This document shows positions 24,355 through 33,156 of a stretch of 33,979 nucleotides of DNA, piece by piece. The position numbers were made by a program, and so were the translations under genes. The notes beneath the pieces are model-generated. The model was given only the letters and a program-made list of their open reading frames with translations, did not search any database and was not told the origin of the DNA. Location of the stretch: positions 1 through 33,979 of IMG/VR virus record IMGVR_UViG_3300034082_000744; one strand, written 5' to 3'. Position 1 is the first letter of the stretch, and each line of letters starts with the position of its first letter. The stretch is from a virus.

Positions 24355-24888
24355 TTACTTCTTTTTAGATTGTTTAGTAACTGCGAAAATTGTCTTTTTT
24401 CTAGCTTTCAACTTCTCTTCATAAGCATCTTCTTGGTTAGCTTGAGCTTTATCTACACGTTTTAATGTGGCTGCTTGCGTTTGTATTTTAGCATTTCTAC
24501 GTTTCTGTTCCGATGACTCTGGAGCTGCTTTTACTTGAGCCTCTTCATCTAATACAATGTAATAAATAGAACTCTCATGTGTCATTAAATAAGGCTTACC
24601 ATTGATAATAGACTCTAGGTTAGCCATTGAATTGTAAATCACTAATAATCCTACTTTAAGATAATCAGAACACTCAGGGCCTAATGCTATGATTCTAGCA
24701 GTGAACTCTTGAGTACTAACTGCATCAGGAATGATTAATCCTGTTTCAGACTTTCTTTCTCCGCCTTTAACGCGCTGTAATAAAACTGATTTACCTAATG
24801 GAATAACGTTTACATTACTTTTAACTAAATCCAATGGTACTTTTATTGCTTGGATTCTTTTTGCTAATTGCTGATTAATACTTTCCAT
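24355..24888 (-). CDS. GroES-like co-chaperonin with a charged C-terminal extension
   Basis: A 177-aa protein. Residues about 26-116 follow the Cpn10/GroES pattern: VNVIPLGKSVLLQRV, a mobile loop about 40-56 with ETGLIIPDAV, FTARIIALGP, VGLLVIYNS, and a last strand ESSIYYIVLDEE. The loop tripeptide of GroES (IVL/III) that contacts the host GroEL is represented by LII. About 60 extra residues follow, Ala/Lys/Gln-rich and strongly basic at the end (ARKKTIFAVTKQSKKK), where normal GroES (about 95 aa) stops. Phage co-chaperonins such as T4 gp31 replace host GroES so that GroEL can fold capsid protein. Known for the family; inferred here. The tail is unusual and might bind nucleic acid or cargo. 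Confidence 0.8.
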   Translation of the reverse strand: MESINQQLAKRIQAIKVPLDLVKSNVNVIPLGKSVLLQRVKGGERKSETGLIIPDAVSTQEFTARIIALGPECSDYLKVGLLVIYNSMANLESIINGKPYLMTHESSIYYIVLDEEAQVKAAPESSEQKRRNAKIQTQAATLKRVDKAQANQEDAYEEKLKARKKTIFAVTKQSKKK

Positions 24889-24991
24889 AAGTAGTTGGCT
24901 GTGTTGTTGTTAATTTAACTTTTGGGAATTTGTTTTCTGTCATCCATGCTTTTAAGCAATCGGCTCGTTTTGACATTTTTAATTTACTCAT
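24875..24991 (-). CDS. Small basic 38-aa protein upstream of the GroES-like gene
   Basis: ATG at 24991 follows an A-rich leader typical of this phage, and the frame runs to TAA at 24877-24875, overlapping the GroES-like start by 14 nt. The product begins MSKLKMSKRADCLKAWMTEN and ends TTYGKY, with many Lys residues and no membrane segment. The translational overlap and the leader favour a real gene that couples into the co-chaperonin. Function unknown; weak to moderate support. Confidence 0.5.
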   Translation of the reverse strand: MSKLKMSKRADCLKAWMTENKFPKVKLTTTQPTTYGKY

Positions 24992-25047
24992 TTTTTCTGT
25001 TTTTGTTTGGTTATAAAATTAAACTATTTGTATTTATTATCAAAATA

Positions 25048-25338
25048 TTAAGCGTAAAATCTATTTAGAAAATCCACTATTCGCTTTGCTTCTGAATCCC
25101 ATATTTCATAAAGATAATCTCCTTTGTGTTTATCTCGGATTTCTATTACTTTGTTTTTCCAATTACGGACTTGCTGAATATCATCAGCTAGTATCCAATC
25201 TAACTGCTTAGTAGTAGAGAATGGATAAGGTTCTTTAACATAGATTAACTCAGAACTATCATTTGTTTTGTTTTCTAAGATTTCTTTGTTAATGTCTTTA
25301 TCGGCTGAAGGATGTATTATGTTTATCATTATTGACAT
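25048..25338 (-). CDS. Hypothetical protein, 96 aa
   Basis: An acidic to neutral protein overlapping the preceding lipoprotein gene by 10 nt. The first residues (MSIMINIIHPSADKDIN) and EPYPFSTTKQLDWILADDIQ, followed by a helical Trp/Lys/Arg-rich second half (WKNKVIEIRDKHKGDYLYE), suggest a small cytoplasmic alpha/beta protein. No family recognised. In-frame AUGs at residues 1 and 4 leave the start uncertain. A spacer containing the small gene at 24875-24991 follows. Confidence 0.55.
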   Translation of the reverse strand: MSIMINIIHPSADKDINKEILENKTNDSSELIYVKEPYPFSTTKQLDWILADDIQQVRNWKNKVIEIRDKHKGDYLYEIWDSEAKRIVDFLNRFYA

Positions 25339-25574
25339 TCATTGCAACTGTTTTTTTCTATAACAGTTAGGTTCATTTGATTAGTTGCTCCATAGTTTGA
25401 AGTGGCTTGATATTCTGCATCCGTTGAGGTGCATTTGTAGAATATAAAAGAGTTGTTGAAACCCATTTGATACCAACAATATACTTTTGAAGTTGTTGTT
25501 TGTGTTGTGCTGCTTGGAGCAGTAGTTTTCTTTTGACATCCTACAAATAGGACTAAAATTAATAAGTGTTTCAT
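25329..25574 (-). CDS. Small phage lipoprotein
   Basis: An 81-aa protein. MKHLLILVLFVGC is a minimal lipoprotein signal peptide with the lipobox FVGC, so Cys13 would be lipidated. The mature part begins with a Lys/Thr/Ser-rich linker (QKKTTAPSSTTQTTTS) and then has a compact domain with four cysteines (YCWYQ, FYKCTS, NSCNECQ) that could form two disulphides. It is expressed from its own GTAACC element 28 nt upstream. Small phage lipoproteins often block superinfection by binding the outer-membrane receptor or by acting in the inner membrane. That is an inference from localisation and early expression, not from homology. Confidence 0.75.
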   Translation of the reverse strand: MKHLLILVLFVGCQKKTTAPSSTTQTTTSKVYCWYQMGFNNSFIFYKCTSTDAEYQATSNYGATNQMNLTVIEKNSCNECQ

Positions 25575-25601
25575 AATTATTTGTTTTTGATTTAAAGTTT
25601 A

Positions 25602-25630
25602 TACGATACTTGATGCAAAAGGTTACAAAT
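25602..25630 (-). promoter_or_regulatory. GTAACC-type promoter element, copy P3
   Basis: On the minus strand: ATTTGTAACCTTTT (25630-25617), 15 nt after GTAACC, then CGTA (25605-25602) inside TATCGTATAAA. It lies 28 nt before the ATG of the lipoprotein gene. Confidence 0.75.
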
Positions 25631-25655
25631 TAATCAATCATTTTAATTGTTTAAA

Positions 25656-25949
25656 CTAATCTTTGATAAATGTACCGTCTACAGTCTTTCCACTTCTATT
25701 AGATATTTCTACCCATGCAGCTTCTAAACAGTCTTCTATTCTTAATTGATTCTGCTCTGCGAGTATAATTAAAGTAACCATTACATCACCTATGCCATCA
25801 ATTAATTTAGGGGTATTCTTCTTCAATAAAGCAGATGCTACTTCTCCTACTTCCTCGGTTACCTTTGCCATTTGTGCAAATGAATTTTCTTTTTTCAATA
25901 GGTCTTTATCCTTAGCCCATTGTACTACTTTTTCGATTGTTTGTTTCAT
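25656..25949 (-). CDS. MazG-like nucleotide pyrophosphohydrolase
   Basis: A 97-aa all-helical protein with the MazG/all-alpha NTP-PPase signature: TEEVGEVASAL (E32, E33, E36) and DGIGDVMVTLIIL (D51, D55). These acidic residues bind Mg2+ and the triphosphate. The length matches single-domain phage MazG proteins (about 100 aa). The family hydrolyses NTPs or dNTPs to monophosphates. Phage copies are proposed to clean nucleotide pools or to lower host (p)ppGpp signalling. It follows the 67-aa gene by 19 nt and sits in the replication region, which agrees with nucleotide metabolism. Substrate unknown. Confidence 0.85.
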   Translation of the reverse strand: MKQTIEKVVQWAKDKDLLKKENSFAQMAKVTEEVGEVASALLKKNTPKLIDGIGDVMVTLIILAEQNQLRIEDCLEAAWVEISNRSGKTVDGTFIKD

Positions 25950-25968
25950 GTTTATTTGGTTTTAGTTA

Positions 25969-26172
25969 TTATTCAAATTCTTCACACCAACTATCAATAC
26001 ATTCTTGCTTATCTCCATGTTTAAAAAATGCAAATTCGCACTCTTGCTCATTTATCCTTATCACAACCCAATCTTTACCTTCTGATTCTATAACTGAATC
26101 ACAAAGATCAGATCTTCTTCCAAAGAATCCATTACAGTAAGAGTTTTTTATTATAAGACCAACGTTATTCAT
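25969..26172 (-). CDS. Small cysteine-containing hypothetical protein
   Basis: A 67-aa acidic protein directly downstream of the P4 promoter element (28 nt from CGTA to ATG). It contains SYCNGFFGRRSDLCDS, KDWVVIRINEQECEF and CIDSWCEEFE. The strand is chosen because the promoter points this way and the MazG-like gene follows; a similar-length open frame on the opposite strand has no support. No known family. Confidence 0.55.
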   Translation of the reverse strand: MNNVGLIIKNSYCNGFFGRRSDLCDSVIESEGKDWVVIRINEQECEFAFFKHGDKQECIDSWCEEFE

Positions 26173-26199
26173 GATGTTTAGTTTTGATTTAAGTATTTG

Positions 26200-26227
26200 T
26201 ACGAATATTAATTCAAAAGGTTACATT
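26200..26227 (-). promoter_or_regulatory. GTAACC-type promoter element, copy P4
   Basis: On the minus strand: AAATGTAACCTTTT (26228-26215), 15 nt after GTAACC, then CGTA (26203-26200) and CAAATACTTAAA. It lies just after the stop of the HNH/zinc gene and ahead of the 67-aa and MazG-like genes. Confidence 0.75.
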
Positions 26228-26228
26228 T

Positions 26229-26699
26229 TTAATTCATTTTTGAATTATATTCTTGTTTTAATCTATCTTCTAATTCAAATACTTTCTGCCACTCAGGTTT
26301 ATTGATTATTTCACTTCGCGGATTGTTATCGAAAATACTATGACACCCAGTTCCTTGTATATTATAACACATTATTCTGATATTATCAAGATTAAGTCTA
26401 AATCTCTCATACCTGCCTTTTCTGAGTATATGAGCAAAGTTTGAATGAGTCACAAGGCTAAGTCTTTTTCCGCACACAAAGCAAGTAATAGGATTATCCT
26501 CAAATGAATCTAATATAACTTGGAATACATCTTTTTCTCCTGTAGCTTTAAATACTTGTTTTTTAGCTACTGATTTACCTTCCGATTTCTTTTTAGCTTG
26601 TTTAAGTTCGTAATTACATCTTTGACAATAGCCTTTTTTAACAGCTATAATACCTTCTTTATCGCATTTTACGCAAATTCCGTGATGTGGTTGAAACAT
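26229..26699 (-). CDS. Zinc-finger/HNH-type protein, NinG-like candidate
   Basis: A 156-aa protein with an N-terminal four-Cys zinc finger (C9-x2-C12 and C25-x2-C28, CVKCDKEG and YCQRCNYE) and a C-terminal HNH-like part (CFVCGKRL at 73-76, NFAHILRKGRY around H90, LDNIRIMC to GCH at 119-120). The lysine-rich linker (about 33-58) is basic. HNH endonucleases nick or cut DNA using a His-metal site. NinG-type phage proteins act in recombination with a similar zinc layout, and the adjacent gene is a RusA-like resolvase, which favours recombination or packaging-related DNA processing. Motifs are visible; the exact family is inferred. Confidence 0.7.
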   Translation of the reverse strand: MFQPHHGICVKCDKEGIIAVKKGYCQRCNYELKQAKKKSEGKSVAKKQVFKATGEKDVFQVILDSFEDNPITCFVCGKRLSLVTHSNFAHILRKGRYERFRLNLDNIRIMCYNIQGTGCHSIFDNNPRSEIINKPEWQKVFELEDRLKQEYNSKMN

Positions 26700-26700
26700 A

Positions 26701-27264
26701 TTATTTTAAAAGTTTAATGTGAACTCCTGGATTATTTTTATCGTATTGATATGGCTTAAAAGATGGAATCAGAAAATCCGCAGAATCATCTTCAATCCAA
26801 TTATTTTCAGTGAATAAATCTTCGCAAGTTTGAGCCGCATTACAATAATCAAACCTATGCTTGCTTCCCCTTACAAATGTAAATTCAACTTTAAATGGTG
26901 GTTTTAATCCATAATGTTCAATAGCATTCCTAAATTCAATTCCAAAGATATTGTATTGCATTTTAGTCACATCTTTATACTTCTTATGATTTGCACTAGG
27001 TAAACTAATCTGCTTTCCATTTCTAACAAAGTTTATTCGGCTATTCTTTTTAGATGGAACGTTGTAAGTAATAAACCACTCAGTATTTATCTTATGTTCA
27101 AAATCAGGACTATCATTTACCTTTTGTCGGACAATAGAGATAGGTTCTTTTACTTCAATTCCACTAACAGATGCAGCTTTCTTTTTACTATAAGTTCCAT
27201 CTTCGTTACGAGTAAGTCCCATAGCTTCTAATCTCTCTATTGTAAAACCTAGTTTCTTAGCCAT
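26701..27264 (-). CDS. RusA-like Holliday junction resolvase
   Basis: A 187-aa protein. The N-terminal 30 residues (TIERLEAMGLTRNEDGTYSK) are an accessory motif. The catalytic part starts about residue 60: YNVPSKKNSRINF, then PFKVEFTFVRGSKHRFDYCN, then CEDLFTENNWIEDDSADFL. This follows the RusA pattern of a basic entry strand and acidic residues on a helix (D139, D149, D159-160) that bind Mg2+. RusA resolves four-way junctions arising from replication or recombination, which debranches DNA before packaging. RusA itself is about 120 aa, so this one is extended at the N-terminus. It ends 1 nt before the HNH/zinc gene, in line with joint use. Confidence 0.8.
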   Translation of the reverse strand: MAKKLGFTIERLEAMGLTRNEDGTYSKKKAASVSGIEVKEPISIVRQKVNDSPDFEHKINTEWFITYNVPSKKNSRINFVRNGKQISLPSANHKKYKDVTKMQYNIFGIEFRNAIEHYGLKPPFKVEFTFVRGSKHRFDYCNAAQTCEDLFTENNWIEDDSADFLIPSFKPYQYDKNNPGVHIKLLK

Positions 27265-27575
27265 TATCCAAATATTAATTTAAGTTTTTTAAGAGCCTCT
27301 GCTTCATCAAATTTAGGAGAAGTAACAAGTAATTGTATATTAATACCATATCTTACTGCTAACCATATAATCTGAGCTTCACTTAGTGTATTCTTTTGAG
27401 GCTTATCACTAAAGTATCTTGATAACTGCTCTGGAGCTATCTTGAATCGTCTTTCAGAAGCATCTAACACAACCGCCGAGTTCTTAAATCCAAATCCTAC
27501 ATTGGACGGATATAACTCTTTCAGCCTATCGTGGATATGCTTTTTTAAGACTTTACTATCCTTTACTAATGACAT
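27264..27575 (-). CDS. Putative HTH DNA-binding protein
   Basis: A 103-aa basic protein sharing one base with the RusA-like start. The centre has a helix-turn-helix-like rhythm: RRFKIAPEQLSRYFSDKP (recognition-type helix) and TLSEAQIIWLAVRYGINIQL. This resembles the Cro/XRE-related arrangement found in Bacteroidota phage proteins (SEETLxWLALRWGI). A role as transcription or replication regulator is possible. The fold assignment is by eye and uncertain. Confidence 0.55.
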   Translation of the reverse strand: MSLVKDSKVLKKHIHDRLKELYPSNVGFGFKNSAVVLDASERRFKIAPEQLSRYFSDKPQKNTLSEAQIIWLAVRYGINIQLLVTSPKFDEAEALKKLKLIFG

Positions 27576-27819
27576 CTAGGTATTCATCTATGTTGTTAAT
27601 AGCTATATCTAATTGTTTCTCTAGTAAATCATTTGTAGTTTTAGGAAAAGTAAGTCTTCCGATTTCTAATTTAGTTTTACGATCAACAAATGTTTGGAGG
27701 TTAAAAAATTCTCCATCGGCGTTTCTCCCTATTGGTTCTTTGAAAGTATCAATAGTAACAATTATGTTTCTTCCGTCTTTTGTTTTTGCTTCTTTAGCGA
27801 TTGATGCTGTTGGTTTCAT
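27556..27819 (-). CDS. Hypothetical protein, 87 aa
   Basis: Overlaps the following gene by 20 nt. It has a short N-terminal helix, a beta-hairpin core (NIIVTIDTFKEPIGRNADG, then FNLQTFVDRKTKLEIGRLTF) and a helical C-terminus (LLEKQLDIAINNIDEYLDV). It is small, soluble and without membrane segments. Overlapping genes on both sides place it in the recombination operon. No family recognised. Confidence 0.55.
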   Translation of the reverse strand: MKPTASIAKEAKTKDGRNIIVTIDTFKEPIGRNADGEFFNLQTFVDRKTKLEIGRLTFPKTTNDLLEKQLDIAINNIDEYLDVISKG

Positions 27820-27821
27820 GT

Positions 27822-28058
27822 TTATTGTTTTATGGTTATTTTAAATGTTAACATAGCGTATTTTAAAGTAAATGAATCACTACTCGCTATTACTTCATAT
27901 TGATTGTACTGAACATAAGGTATTCCTGTCATCAACTTACAATAGTTGTCGTAAGATAATTTTATCTCTAAAACTAAATTTTCAGGAATAATCTCGCACT
28001 TTTTTATAAAGTTCTCAGCAAATTCCTTTAAGTTTTCGTATGTTTTTACTTCTTTCAT
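27822..28058 (-). CDS. Hypothetical protein, 78 aa
   Basis: Starts 2 nt after the NinB-like gene stop and ends 2 nt before the next gene. The N-terminal helix is charged (MKEVKTYENLKEFAENFIKK). The rest is beta with Tyr/Ile residues (LVLEIKLSYDNYCKLMTGIPYVQYN). No motif or known family. Its only strong feature is the tight operon. Confidence 0.5.
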   Translation of the reverse strand: MKEVKTYENLKEFAENFIKKCEIIPENLVLEIKLSYDNYCKLMTGIPYVQYNQYEVIASSDSFTLKYAMLTFKITIKQ

Positions 28059-28060
28059 AT

Positions 28061-28528
28061 CTATTCTTTTACTGTTATTTCTCTGTAATATCGGTCTGTA
28101 TAAGACTCAGGAGATAATACTATCACCCCTTCTTGAGCCACAAAATTGAGGACATTGTCTATAAATTCAGATGTTTCTTTCTTATTCAACTCTGTTAAAC
28201 TCTTAACCATGTGTTTATCATACTTCTTTTTACCTACTACTACTCTTACTTGATAGCATAGGAACATTGGAGCCATGACTTCTTTATGTAATTCCTCAAC
28301 TGTAGTATAGTGACTAAAAGATTCATTCTGTAAACAAGTCTTTAGTATAGCCCCCCAGTAATATCCAAATTGAGATACACTAGGACGTTTATGGCGATCT
28401 TTAATAGTTAACTCAAACTCTTTTCCTGCTAAGGATTCTCTTTGCTCTTGCCAAAGTTCTACATTGTAAAAACTAATGTTTCCGTTTGGAAGGACGCGTC
28501 CGAAATGTTTTATGGTAATATTTGCCAT
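28061..28528 (-). CDS. NinB-like recombination-associated protein
   Basis: A 155-aa protein. KDRHKRPSVSQFGYYWGAIL (about residues 43-62) matches the R-S-x-N-Q-x-x-YYW-type phrase shared by NinB and related phage recombination proteins, with SVSQFGYYWG in place of SxNQNxYYW. A helical middle and a C-terminal segment (ETSEFIDNVLNFVAQEGVIV) agree with the usual length of 140-200 aa. NinB (Orf in lambda) helps recombination mediators load onto SSB-coated DNA. The neighbouring SSB, RusA-like and HNH genes support such a role. The similarity is short, so confidence is moderate. Confidence 0.65.
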   Translation of the reverse strand: MANITIKHFGRVLPNGNISFYNVELWQEQRESLAGKEFELTIKDRHKRPSVSQFGYYWGAILKTCLQNESFSHYTTVEELHKEVMAPMFLCYQVRVVVGKKKYDKHMVKSLTELNKKETSEFIDNVLNFVAQEGVIVLSPESYTDRYYREITVKE

Positions 28529-28550
28529 TCTAATTTATCTATGGTTTTTA

Positions 28551-28628
28551 CAAGCAGCCAACTCGTTTCGGTTAAAATATGTTTCGGGCTACTTGCTATC
28601 AAATCTACACTAGTAAACGAGTTAGCCC
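28551..28628 (-). other. Structured intergenic RNA or DNA element with interlocked inverted repeats
   Basis: Between the SSB and NinB-like genes. In minus-strand order: GGGCTA (28628-28623), AACTCGTTT (28623-28615), CAAGTAGCC region (28595-28586), AAACGAGTT (28568-28560) and GGCTGCTTG (28559-28551). GGGCTA pairs with TAGCCC, AACTCGTTT with AAACGAGTT, and CAAGTAGCC with GGCTGCTTG (one G-U pair). Pairs cross, so a pseudoknot or two exclusive folds are implied. No terminator T-run follows. Confidence 0.45.
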
Positions 28629-28666
28629 TCGCAAAGTGTTTCCGCCTTTAGAACGGATAGATTAAA

Positions 28667-29428
28667 TTAGAACGCTTCATCATCGTCTTCATCTGCTGGA
28701 TTGAAAACAATATCTTTTTCAGCTTCAATCTTAACTTCTGACTTAGGAGCTGATTTCTTAGTATTCAATCCATTATCTTGATTTTCTTCTATAACTTCAG
28801 CAGGTGCCGCCGATGCGTTTTTAGCTAAATAAGCAGATAAGTATTCTTGTAATTCTTTATCTAGTTCCACCGCCTCTGCGTTAGCTTTATCAGATACTTT
28901 TACCGCCGTGTAAATTGGTTCAAAGTAAACTGTTTTGCCTTTTTTCTTTTCAACTACTTCTTTAACCGATACAGCGATATTATTTACGTTATTTTCTTTA
29001 CAGAACTCAATGAAAGCAGATAATCCTGATCCTCCTAATTGGATATTATATAATCCTAATCCATCCGCTTCTTTCTGCCCAATGTAAACTGATTGATAAT
29101 ACTTTAATCCTTTTGTTCCTAATTTCTCTTTAGCCGCTTCATATAAGCCAGAGAATACGATTCCTTTCTTATTACGAACTGTAATAGTATCAGTCTTAGT
29201 ACTTCTTACTTCGTTTGAGTAATATCCCATTTGAAGGTTATCATCAAAACCTTTACAAGTACTTAGTGTGTCTAATACTAGAAAGTTGAATGGCATCTTC
29301 ATAAATACCTTCTCGCCTTTTTCTCCTTTTTCTTTATCGAAATAAAAGAATTGACCTTTGTCTCCTGAGTACTCGTAAAAACGTTTAGCGGGATTTGTTA
29401 ATTTTTCTGTTGGATTACTTCTTGACAT
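28667..29428 (-). CDS. Single-stranded DNA-binding protein, gp2.5-like
   Basis: A 253-aa protein. It opens with a Bacteroidota-phage SSB-like phrase (LTNPAKRFYEYSGDKGQFFY), then a beta-rich OB-type core (about 30-190, including KMPFNFLVLDTLSTCKGF and YNIQLGGSGLSAFIEF). It closes with an Ala/Glu-rich linker and a strongly acidic tail ending DEDDDEAF. An acidic tail with terminal Phe is the hallmark of T7 gp2.5-type SSBs and recruits helicase and polymerase. Length and fold fit this group. It has its own GTAACC element (P6, 33 nt upstream). The product protects single strands during replication and recombination and would work with the DnaB-like helicase. Confidence 0.8.
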   Translation of the reverse strand: MSRSNPTEKLTNPAKRFYEYSGDKGQFFYFDKEKGEKGEKVFMKMPFNFLVLDTLSTCKGFDDNLQMGYYSNEVRSTKTDTITVRNKKGIVFSGLYEAAKEKLGTKGLKYYQSVYIGQKEADGLGLYNIQLGGSGLSAFIEFCKENNVNNIAVSVKEVVEKKKGKTVYFEPIYTAVKVSDKANAEAVELDKELQEYLSAYLAKNASAAPAEVIEENQDNGLNTKKSAPKSEVKIEAEKDIVFNPADEDDDEAF

Positions 29429-31242: not shown

Positions 31243-32605
31243 TGCTACTTCCTGTTACTAATCCATTAACTTCATTAATATCAAAATCTTTAAATGCTGA
31301 GTATTTACCTTCAAATCTTACATAAACCTTCCCTGTGCTTCCGTATCGGTTTTTAGCCACATTAATTTCACATAGTCCGCGCAAATCCATTCCTGTTTTT
31401 GGATCTGTTGCATCAGAATTGTAGTAATCTGCCCTGTAAAGTAACCAAATTTGTACTGCGTTGGCCTCAATAGCTCCAGAGTCTTTTAAATCAGACATTA
31501 AAGGATATGGCGGATTTCTCTTCTCTACATCTCTCGATAGCTGAGATAATTCAATCATGCAACAATTCTCTGTTTTAGAAGTCTCTAGTAGCCCATTACA
31601 TCTATCTCCAACTTGTTCTTCTTTAGATTTTCCAACCGTTTCTTCTTTTGTATTCTTCATTAACTGTAAATAGTCAATCATTACAGTCATAAGTGTACTT
31701 AATGGAATACCTAATTGCTTACGAACCTTTCTTATCTTAGTTCTCATATATTGCCAAGTAATACCAGGAGTATCGTCAATAACTAGGTTTCTTTTAATTT
31801 TATCTCTTAGTTTCTTAATTCTGATTAAATCTTCATCAGATACATTGCCGCTTCTAATTTGCCAACTATTAATCTCTAGGCAGTTGGCCCAAATATTTTT
31901 CATTAGCTGTTTGGCAGGCATCTCTAAAGAAAATATAATCAAAGGCTCTCCTTTATCAACTGCGATATGTTTGGTTATATTGATAATTAAGCTAGTCTTT
32001 CCCATTCCAGGTCTTGCTCCAACAACAATAACTTCCTGCTTGGCTCCTGATGTAATTTTATTTAAGTCTTTTATACCATAAGAGTGTCCGATTGTTTCAG
32101 ATTTACTATTCTGCGCTTCCATTAACTCTTCAAAAGCTTCATCAAAAATATCTTCAACGTGCCTTTCTACTGATAAATTATTCTTAATACTCTCAATGTC
32201 TGACACTATTGACTTTAAATCTTCAATAGAACTATTTACATCAGTTATCTCATTACTAAGCTCTGAGTGAACGCTATGAAGTATAGGTAGCATTTTTCTC
32301 TTAGTGTACTCATCGAATATATCATTTACATATTCTGATACGTTTTTGGCAATAGCGTAGTTTGGTTCCGAAACTTCTAATCCAATCTCTTTCTTGTTAC
32401 AACCAGACTTAATTAACATATTAGAAAGTAGATAAACATCTGACTTCCTTCCTTTATCGTGGTTGTGTTTTATAATTTTATACTTAACCTTGTTAAAGTT
32501 TGTGGACCATAACTCTTCAAATATTAAATGATGACAAGTCTCAAATAGGTTTTCGTTATCTGCGTATAAATTAAGTACAGCTCTTTCTTTTTCTTTTAAT
32601 GTCAT
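31226..32605 (-). CDS. dnaB: Replicative DNA helicase, DnaB-like
   Basis: A 459-aa protein of DnaB size. An N-terminal helical domain (about 1-140) precedes a RecA-like motor. Walker A is GARPGMGKTS (196-205). IIFSLEMPAKQL (223-234) is helicase motif H1a. Walker B is VMIDYLQL (308-315). IELSQLSRDVEKR (351-363) carries the H3-type Gln/Arg. DLKDSGAIEANAVQIWLLYR (372-391) is the H4 region. DnaB unwinds the fork 5' to 3' as a hexamer and recruits primase; no primase is visible here. Start ATG 32605 shares bases with the stop of the HNH gene (TAATG), so its translation depends on that gene. Confidence 0.92.
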   Translation of the reverse strand: MTLKEKERAVLNLYADNENLFETCHHLIFEELWSTNFNKVKYKIIKHNHDKGRKSDVYLLSNMLIKSGCNKKEIGLEVSEPNYAIAKNVSEYVNDIFDEYTKRKMLPILHSVHSELSNEITDVNSSIEDLKSIVSDIESIKNNLSVERHVEDIFDEAFEELMEAQNSKSETIGHSYGIKDLNKITSGAKQEVIVVGARPGMGKTSLIINITKHIAVDKGEPLIIFSLEMPAKQLMKNIWANCLEINSWQIRSGNVSDEDLIRIKKLRDKIKRNLVIDDTPGITWQYMRTKIRKVRKQLGIPLSTLMTVMIDYLQLMKNTKEETVGKSKEEQVGDRCNGLLETSKTENCCMIELSQLSRDVEKRNPPYPLMSDLKDSGAIEANAVQIWLLYRADYYNSDATDPKTGMDLRGLCEINVAKNRYGSTGKVYVRFEGKYSAFKDFDINEVNGLVTGSSNGDEF

Positions 32606-33156
32606 TACTTATGGTATATAAACGTTGTGTTATTTTTTGTAACTCCTTGTAGCTTTCTTTTAAGTGCGCTATACCCTATATTGTTTTCTTTAGCAGCTAT
32701 TTTTATAGAATCATAAATCTTACCGTCTGATGTATTAATTACTTTCATAGAACATCTTTTTATGGTTCTACTTATTAATAAATCTATTTGATGAGGATGT
32801 ATCTTATTTAACCCTGTATCAAATGCGTGTTGACAATTTTCTTGATTAGTAGCCCATTCTAAATTAGAAATATGATTATTTAATTTATCTCCATCTTTAT
32901 GGTTAACTTGAGGTTTATTCTTATGGTTAGGAATAAAAGCAATAGCAACAAGCCTATGTACTTTTTTAGTATGTCCATTTTTATCTTTAACCAAGGATAC
33001 TAAATAATATTTCGTTGTACCTATTCCTGGTTTTAAATTTCTTTCTCCAAATCTACCTGCGAATTTTAGTGATTTTACATTTCCGAAAGTAGATACAGCA
33101 TATCTACCTTCAAATCCTTCAATGTCTTTCCAAATTTCTTTTTCTTTATGTTCCAT
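32605..33156 (-). CDS. HNH homing endonuclease (NUMOD4-HNH-NUMOD1 type)
   Basis: A 183-aa protein with three modules: NUMOD4 (WKDIEGFEGRYAVSTFGNVK, about 9-30), an HNH core (HRLVAIAFIP, then VNHKDGDKLNNHISNLEWAT, about 68-103) and a C-terminal NUMOD1/IENR1-like DNA-binding segment (about 137-183, DGKIYDSIKIAAKENNIGYS). This layout is typical of phage group I intron or free-standing homing endonucleases that cut a specific site and spread by gene conversion. No intron is obvious: dnaB downstream and the replication-type gene upstream are both intact. I infer a free-standing mobile endonuclease inserted ahead of dnaB, translationally coupled to it. Confidence 0.85.
   Translation of the reverse strand: MEHKEKEIWKDIEGFEGRYAVSTFGNVKSLKFAGRFGERNLKPGIGTTKYYLVSLVKDKNGHTKKVHRLVAIAFIPNHKNKPQVNHKDGDKLNNHISNLEWATNQENCQHAFDTGLNKIHPHQIDLLISRTIKRCSMKVINTSDGKIYDSIKIAAKENNIGYSALKRKLQGVTKNNTTFIYHK

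Follow-up and report, generated by a model that had tools for sequence, protein, structure and literature searches.

The SSB-NinB spacer and its setting

The window analysed here, the complete stretch of 33,979 nucleotides, contains a block of replication and recombination genes in which two minus-strand genes are separated by a spacer of 138 bp (28529-28666), with the minus strand as the sense strand. The upstream gene (28667-29428, minus strand) encodes an SSB-like protein of 253 aa (phrog_6706) with the acidic tail DEDDDEAF. Its label, which follows from the tail motif and gene order and has no fold match behind it, is not proven; a structure model of the protein is weak, with best PDB matches at E ~0.01, some of them to RPA. 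The downstream gene (28061-28528, minus strand) encodes a NinB/Orf-like recombination mediator of 155 aa (phrog_72, E 6.6e-7). The window also carries a crAss-like tail ring protein 2, a phage-encoded Cpn10 (GroES-like) co-chaperonin (24355-24888), and a NUMOD4/HNH homing-type endonuclease (32605-33156) beside a DnaB-like helicase gene. A segment of 3.2 kb (24626-27841) is 99.4% identical to the related locus L006, whose adjoining SSB protein is 61% identical, indicating strong mosaicism.

A preliminary description of the spacer listed three complementary pairs of 6, 9 and 9 bp between these genes, in an order that makes two of them cross. All three are present where it placed them: AACTCGTTT (28560-28568) with AAACGAGTT (28615-28623), a perfect match of 9 bp; GGGCTA (28586-28591) with TAGCCC (28623-28628), a perfect match of 6 bp; and CAAGCAGCC (28551-28559) with GGCTACTTG (28587-28595), 9 bp including one wobble pair. 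The crossing order and the length of the spacer were likewise confirmed. As plain repeats, the three pairs are only mildly unusual, with one perfect 9-bp pair in the spacer against 0.06 expected (P ~0.05) and seven 6-bp pairs against 3 expected (P ~0.06). The description had seen no promoter element, and promoter-like matches at the spacer indeed occur only in the number expected by chance. No terminator was found in the spacer, and GC skew across the window shows no turn there.

A four-helix fold kept by compensatory changes

The minus strand of the spacer folds better than all 200 of 200 shuffled sequences (z -3.97), whereas no such excess of structure is seen on the plus strand (z -0.46). 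Relatives of the same lineage were gathered by searches with both flanking proteins, and further members came from pattern scans of other phages (see below). Seven distinct versions share a common architecture, in the order P1, P2 hairpin, P3, AGAUUUGAUA, P4, AAAAACCA and P1'. The predicted fold is a four-helix junction, closed by P1 and followed by P2, P3 and P4.

In the window, the element occupies 28528-28672, and all of its parts are read on the minus strand. It begins at the final codon of the SSB-like gene and runs as far as base 1 of the start codon of the NinB-like gene. The 5' strand of P1, UUCUAAUUUAAUCUA (28658-28672), includes the SSB stop codon TAA (28667-28669), and its 3' strand, UAGAUAAAUUAGAA (28528-28541), ends in the NinB-like start codon. 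P1 core pairing is maintained in L094 through UUCUA/UAGAA. The P2 hairpin UCCGU-UCUAAAG-GCGGA (28641-28657) presents an invariant 7-nt loop (28646-28652) on three different stems (UCCGU/GCGGA, GUAGU/ACUAC and GCUAU/AUAGC). P3 (28607-28639) pairs ACACU (28635-28639) with AGUGU (28607-28611) around a variable interior, and four different stems are found at this position (ACACU/AGUGU, ACUUAU/AUAAGU, AUUUAU/AUAAAU and GCUUGU/ACAAGU). P4 (28550-28596), also with a variable interior, pairs GCAAGUAGCC (28587-28596) with GGCUGCUUGU (28550-28559), and its stems number at least four (GCAAGUAG/CUACUUGU, GCAAGUAA/UUACUUGU, GCACUA/UAGUGU and GCACA/UGUGU). Between the helices lie J3/4, AGAUUUGAUA (28597-28606), and J4/1, AAAAACCA (28542-28549), both invariant in the alignment of versions; this invariance is partly a search effect, since exact patterns of both blocks were used to find four of the members, with P1, P2 and P3 outside the pattern.

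Invariant nucleotides cluster in single-stranded parts around a compact junction. The tips of P3 and P4 vary freely in sequence and length, and the size of the element ranges from ~125 to 260 nt. Because the arms vary in this way, a coding role was rejected. The conserved fold is no more than ~3 kcal/mol above the minimum in any of the versions.

Covariation was assessed in a gap-free alignment (A4) of the seven distinct versions. Each was trimmed at set offsets from the invariant blocks, so that invariant flanks, rather than complementarity, determined the registers of P3 and P4. The variable tips of these two helices, and a single additional C in L070, were omitted. In this alignment 91.8% of the cells are paired and 15 of the 28 pairs show double-sided changes. 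None of 500 shuffles reached any of five measures, and sliding the partners by 1-3 bases lowered pairing to 32-42%, with at most four double-sided pairs. RNAalifold, unaided, recovered the same four helices. The wobble cells comprise 11 G-U and no A-C, all 11 fitting the sense RNA and none the antisense; the fold therefore belongs to the sense RNA. The preliminary description had proposed compensatory changes in homologous spacers as a check. They are present in number, in several helices and beyond both shuffled and slid controls, and thus support a functional structured RNA. That the spacer holds a conserved structured RNA of some kind is close to certain.

The complementary pairs of the window can be placed within this fold. 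The span first marked, 28551-28628, contains real repeats but cuts off the two outer helices, and the element extends from ~28528 to 28672. The pair GGCTACTTG/CAAGCAGCC is the conserved helix P4. By contrast, the 6-bp pair, which is in competition with P4, is not kept in relatives and occurs only in the window spacer sequence. AACTCGTTT/AAACGAGTT connects the inside of P3 with the inside of P4, as part of a loop-loop pairing (28559-28624, minus strand) of UAACUCGUUU (28615-28624) with AAACGAGUUG (28559-28568) that crosses both helices. This helix is unlikely by chance in the window sequence (P ~0.003), but complementarity is at chance level in the other six versions. The pseudoknot first suggested is therefore not supported, as the crossing helix is not kept by covariation; AACTCGTTT/AAACGAGTT could form a kissing helix locally, or belong to a 21-bp hairpin that is predicted as an alternative fold of equal energy. 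A switch pairing of the P1 5' strand with UAGAU of J3/4 was also considered. L094 changes P1 and P1' together but not J3/4, and P1 is favoured for this reason.

Distribution in sister phages and beyond

The SSB-NinB spacers of relatives fall into three kinds, containing the RNA element, a tRNA-like gene, or only a few bases. The element is identical in L001-L007, and diverged copies are present in L039 and L042-L045. In L016/L017, L018/L047, L038 and L046 the slot is taken by a tRNA-like gene, and only a few bases are left in L048 and L049. The content of the slot is independent of flanking-gene similarity: the SSB of L038 is 87% identical to that of the window, yet a tRNA gene is found in the slot, whereas the SSB of L006 is only 61% identical and the RNA element is the same. 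Thus, the slot has been exchanged by recombination. By covariance model, every phage carrying the RNA element has a single copy, split double matches in G006 and G009 being two halves of one long copy. The model gives no match in six relatives whose slot is empty or filled by a tRNA-like gene (one of these relatives is only a 4.4-kb fragment).

The tRNA-like genes of the slot (L016:3900-3983, L018:3910-3984, L038:3780-3855 and L046:3347-3421) have abnormal anticodon arms. That of L038 has the ochre anticodon TTA, those of L018 and L046 have an 8-nt loop in the anticodon arm, and that of L016, which is not called by ARAGORN, has a loop of ~14 nt with CTA. These genes may be suppressors, decoys or insert-bearing tRNAs.

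Exact-pattern scans of viral contigs with the two conserved blocks yielded four further members, L077, L075, L093 and L094, on contigs of 85-117 kb, each of which also has P1, P2 and P3. Further viral pattern matches lacked P4 complementarity and were judged to be chance. A crAss-like tail ring protein 2 is encoded on three of the four contigs, as in the window; the L094 contig (G009) gave no match to this protein. In these four phages the element is flanked by small ORFs that are unrelated and have no family match; the only PHROGs match nearby is to one membrane protein. The constant downstream genes typical of a gene-specific leader or riboswitch are thus not seen. A stop codon precedes the element by a few bases in three of these phages and by ~130 nt in the fourth. 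At the SSB-NinB loci, as in L094, P1 reaches the following start codon with its 3' strand, a contact that would also fit a role in cis.

Because these four members stand beside unrelated genes in other phages, the element is neither a dedicated leader of the recombination genes nor a replication origin. The earlier idea of a regulatory RNA in such a leader thus stands as to a structured RNA, borne out by compensatory changes, but not as to the leader.

Several tRNA and tmRNA genes were observed in related contexts. In L151 (IMGVR_UViG_3300015050_000678, crAss-like) the RNA element is followed ~1.4 kb downstream by a tmRNA match of 68 bits (L151:8368-8779). Two other crAss-like phages (L150:5921-6378 and L151:3122-3685) have a tRNA gene directly after a small gene that is SSB-like by eye, without a family match, an arrangement as in the sisters of the window. 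A tRNA match in L156 (G006:10728-10855) is 128 nt long and so has a sizeable insertion in its anticodon region.

No Rfam 15 family matched at the gathering threshold in the window, L070, L072 or the loci of other members. In loose scans of three members (E up to 10, ribozyme families included), below-threshold matches were at chance level, and covariance models of known small self-cleaving ribozyme classes found no match. The element did not match a tRNA (ARAGORN, RF00005) and has neither T-arm nor anticodon arm. DNA similarity searches of 50,697 annotated phage records with the window locus and the elements of two relatives returned nothing real. In genome contigs, a search for the SSB found no relative, and the core pattern gave 32 matches, none (0/32) with P4. 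Sampled Bacteroidia/Bacteroidota genomes contained no member by pattern or by model, the latter run with strict filters. As no member was found in annotated phage records or host genomes, the family is small as seen here. The stretch ACTAGTGTAGAT bears a passing resemblance to a Cas12a direct repeat; it spans the variable P3, is not kept in relatives, and was set aside.

Possible roles and known counterparts

Our best reading is a new family of structured phage RNA that would be co-transcribed with its operon. Judged from sequence comparison, the element probably functions as an independent RNA unit. It would be transcribed within the early operon and, because P1 closes it off, might fold autonomously; excision near P1 could then follow, as for intercistronic tRNAs. 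The putative active or binding surface would consist of L2 (UCUAAAG), J3/4 (AGAUUUGAUA) and J4/1 (AAAAACCA), and the invariant junction strands point to either catalysis or a specific binding partner. The full proposal, that the spacer encodes a conserved four-helix-junction RNA absent from Rfam and released from the operon transcript as an autonomous phage unit, is put forward tentatively, at a little under an even chance. Still more tentative is the view that it represents a new class of autonomous phage RNA (a ribozyme, or an RNA directed at polymerase or ribosome), moved between operons as a cassette swapped with tRNA genes.

An element acting in cis, by self-cleavage, antitermination or translational coupling, is possible, and these three are the main rivals. 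The first is a processor, either a new self-cleaving ribozyme or a site cut by a protein, that separates the upstream message from the downstream one and has the invariant junction strands as its catalytic core. Invariant nucleotides in single-stranded parts of a compact junction are a feature of small ribozymes, the element directly follows stop codons in co-directional operons of unrelated genes, and the HDV-like theta ribozymes of phages adjoin tRNAs (PMC10879173). Against this, none of the Rfam ribozyme families matched even at E up to 10, and a fixed cut site is not readable from the sequences; we regard a processor as unlikely.

Distinctly unlikely is an element that promotes antitermination or polymerase loading by acting on its own polymerase, by analogy with put of HK022. 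It would account for a single-copy RNA confined to the sense strand, within operons and without ties to particular genes, and for the lack of its own promoter or terminator at the window site. However, the position is mid-operon and not at a transcript start, as far as promoters can be judged, and in close relatives the slot is empty or filled by a tRNA-like gene.

Translational coupling, in which P1 hides the NinB-like start region until opened by ribosomes finishing the SSB-like gene, fits the window, where P1 spans the SSB stop codon and reaches the NinB start codon at its first base, and also L039, L042 and L094, where P1 abuts the start codon. It appears improbable given L075, L077 and L093, where the next start codon lies well downstream of P1, and given relatives whose gene order is the same although the element gives way to a few bases or a tRNA-like gene; the invariant loops are left unexplained.

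A regulatory switch in the window phage, between the conserved junction and the 21-bp hairpin built from the crossing repeats, has in its favour the near-equal energies of the two folds (-41.4 and -41.9 kcal/mol) and the low chance probability of the loop-loop helix. The alternative fold is absent in the other six versions, which makes a switch very improbable; copies in L006/L007 and in near-identical phages do not differ, which leaves covariation uninformative here. A replication origin or other DNA-level site, also suggested at first and in keeping with the replication and recombination gene block, is scarcely credible, as the 11 G-U and absent A-C pairs mark an RNA of one strand, the element occupies unrelated genomic places in other phages and is missing in sister phages, and GC skew, which had been proposed as a check, shows no turn at the spacer.

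Orphan structured RNAs are a known kind in phages; what is new here is a well-supported fold without an Rfam relative. Since one and the same slot holds the RNA in some sister phages, a tRNA-like gene in others and neither in the rest, a natural comparison is built in, and the role of the element is directly testable.

The closest counterparts by position are phage tRNA and tRNA-like genes, which occupy the same SSB-NinB slot in sisters (L016, L018, L038 and L046) and, like the element, are sense-strand, intercistronic and closed by a terminal helix. The element differs from them in its other helices and its invariant loops, and in having no T-arm, anticodon arm or tRNA match. The put RNA of phage HK022, a pair of hairpins with which early transcripts begin, causes antitermination by acting on the polymerase that makes it. 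A similar activity would account for an RNA of the sense strand that is not tied to the gene beside it, a likeness judged by Rfam and position only. The stable RNAs C and D of phage T4, of unknown function, are also non-tRNA RNAs encoded among tRNA genes, and are likened to the element by description, not sequence.

Theta ribozymes are HDV-like, small structured RNAs in the operons of gut phages, often beside tRNAs (PMC10879173). They form an HDV-type nested double pseudoknot, in contrast to the four-helix junction of the element, which has no HDV-like Rfam match at E up to 10. GOLLD and ROOL are orphan structured RNAs, some of them in phages (PMC2864571, PMC12286853). Both are much larger than the element, which has no Rfam match; like them, it combines a conserved fold with variable peripheral arms.
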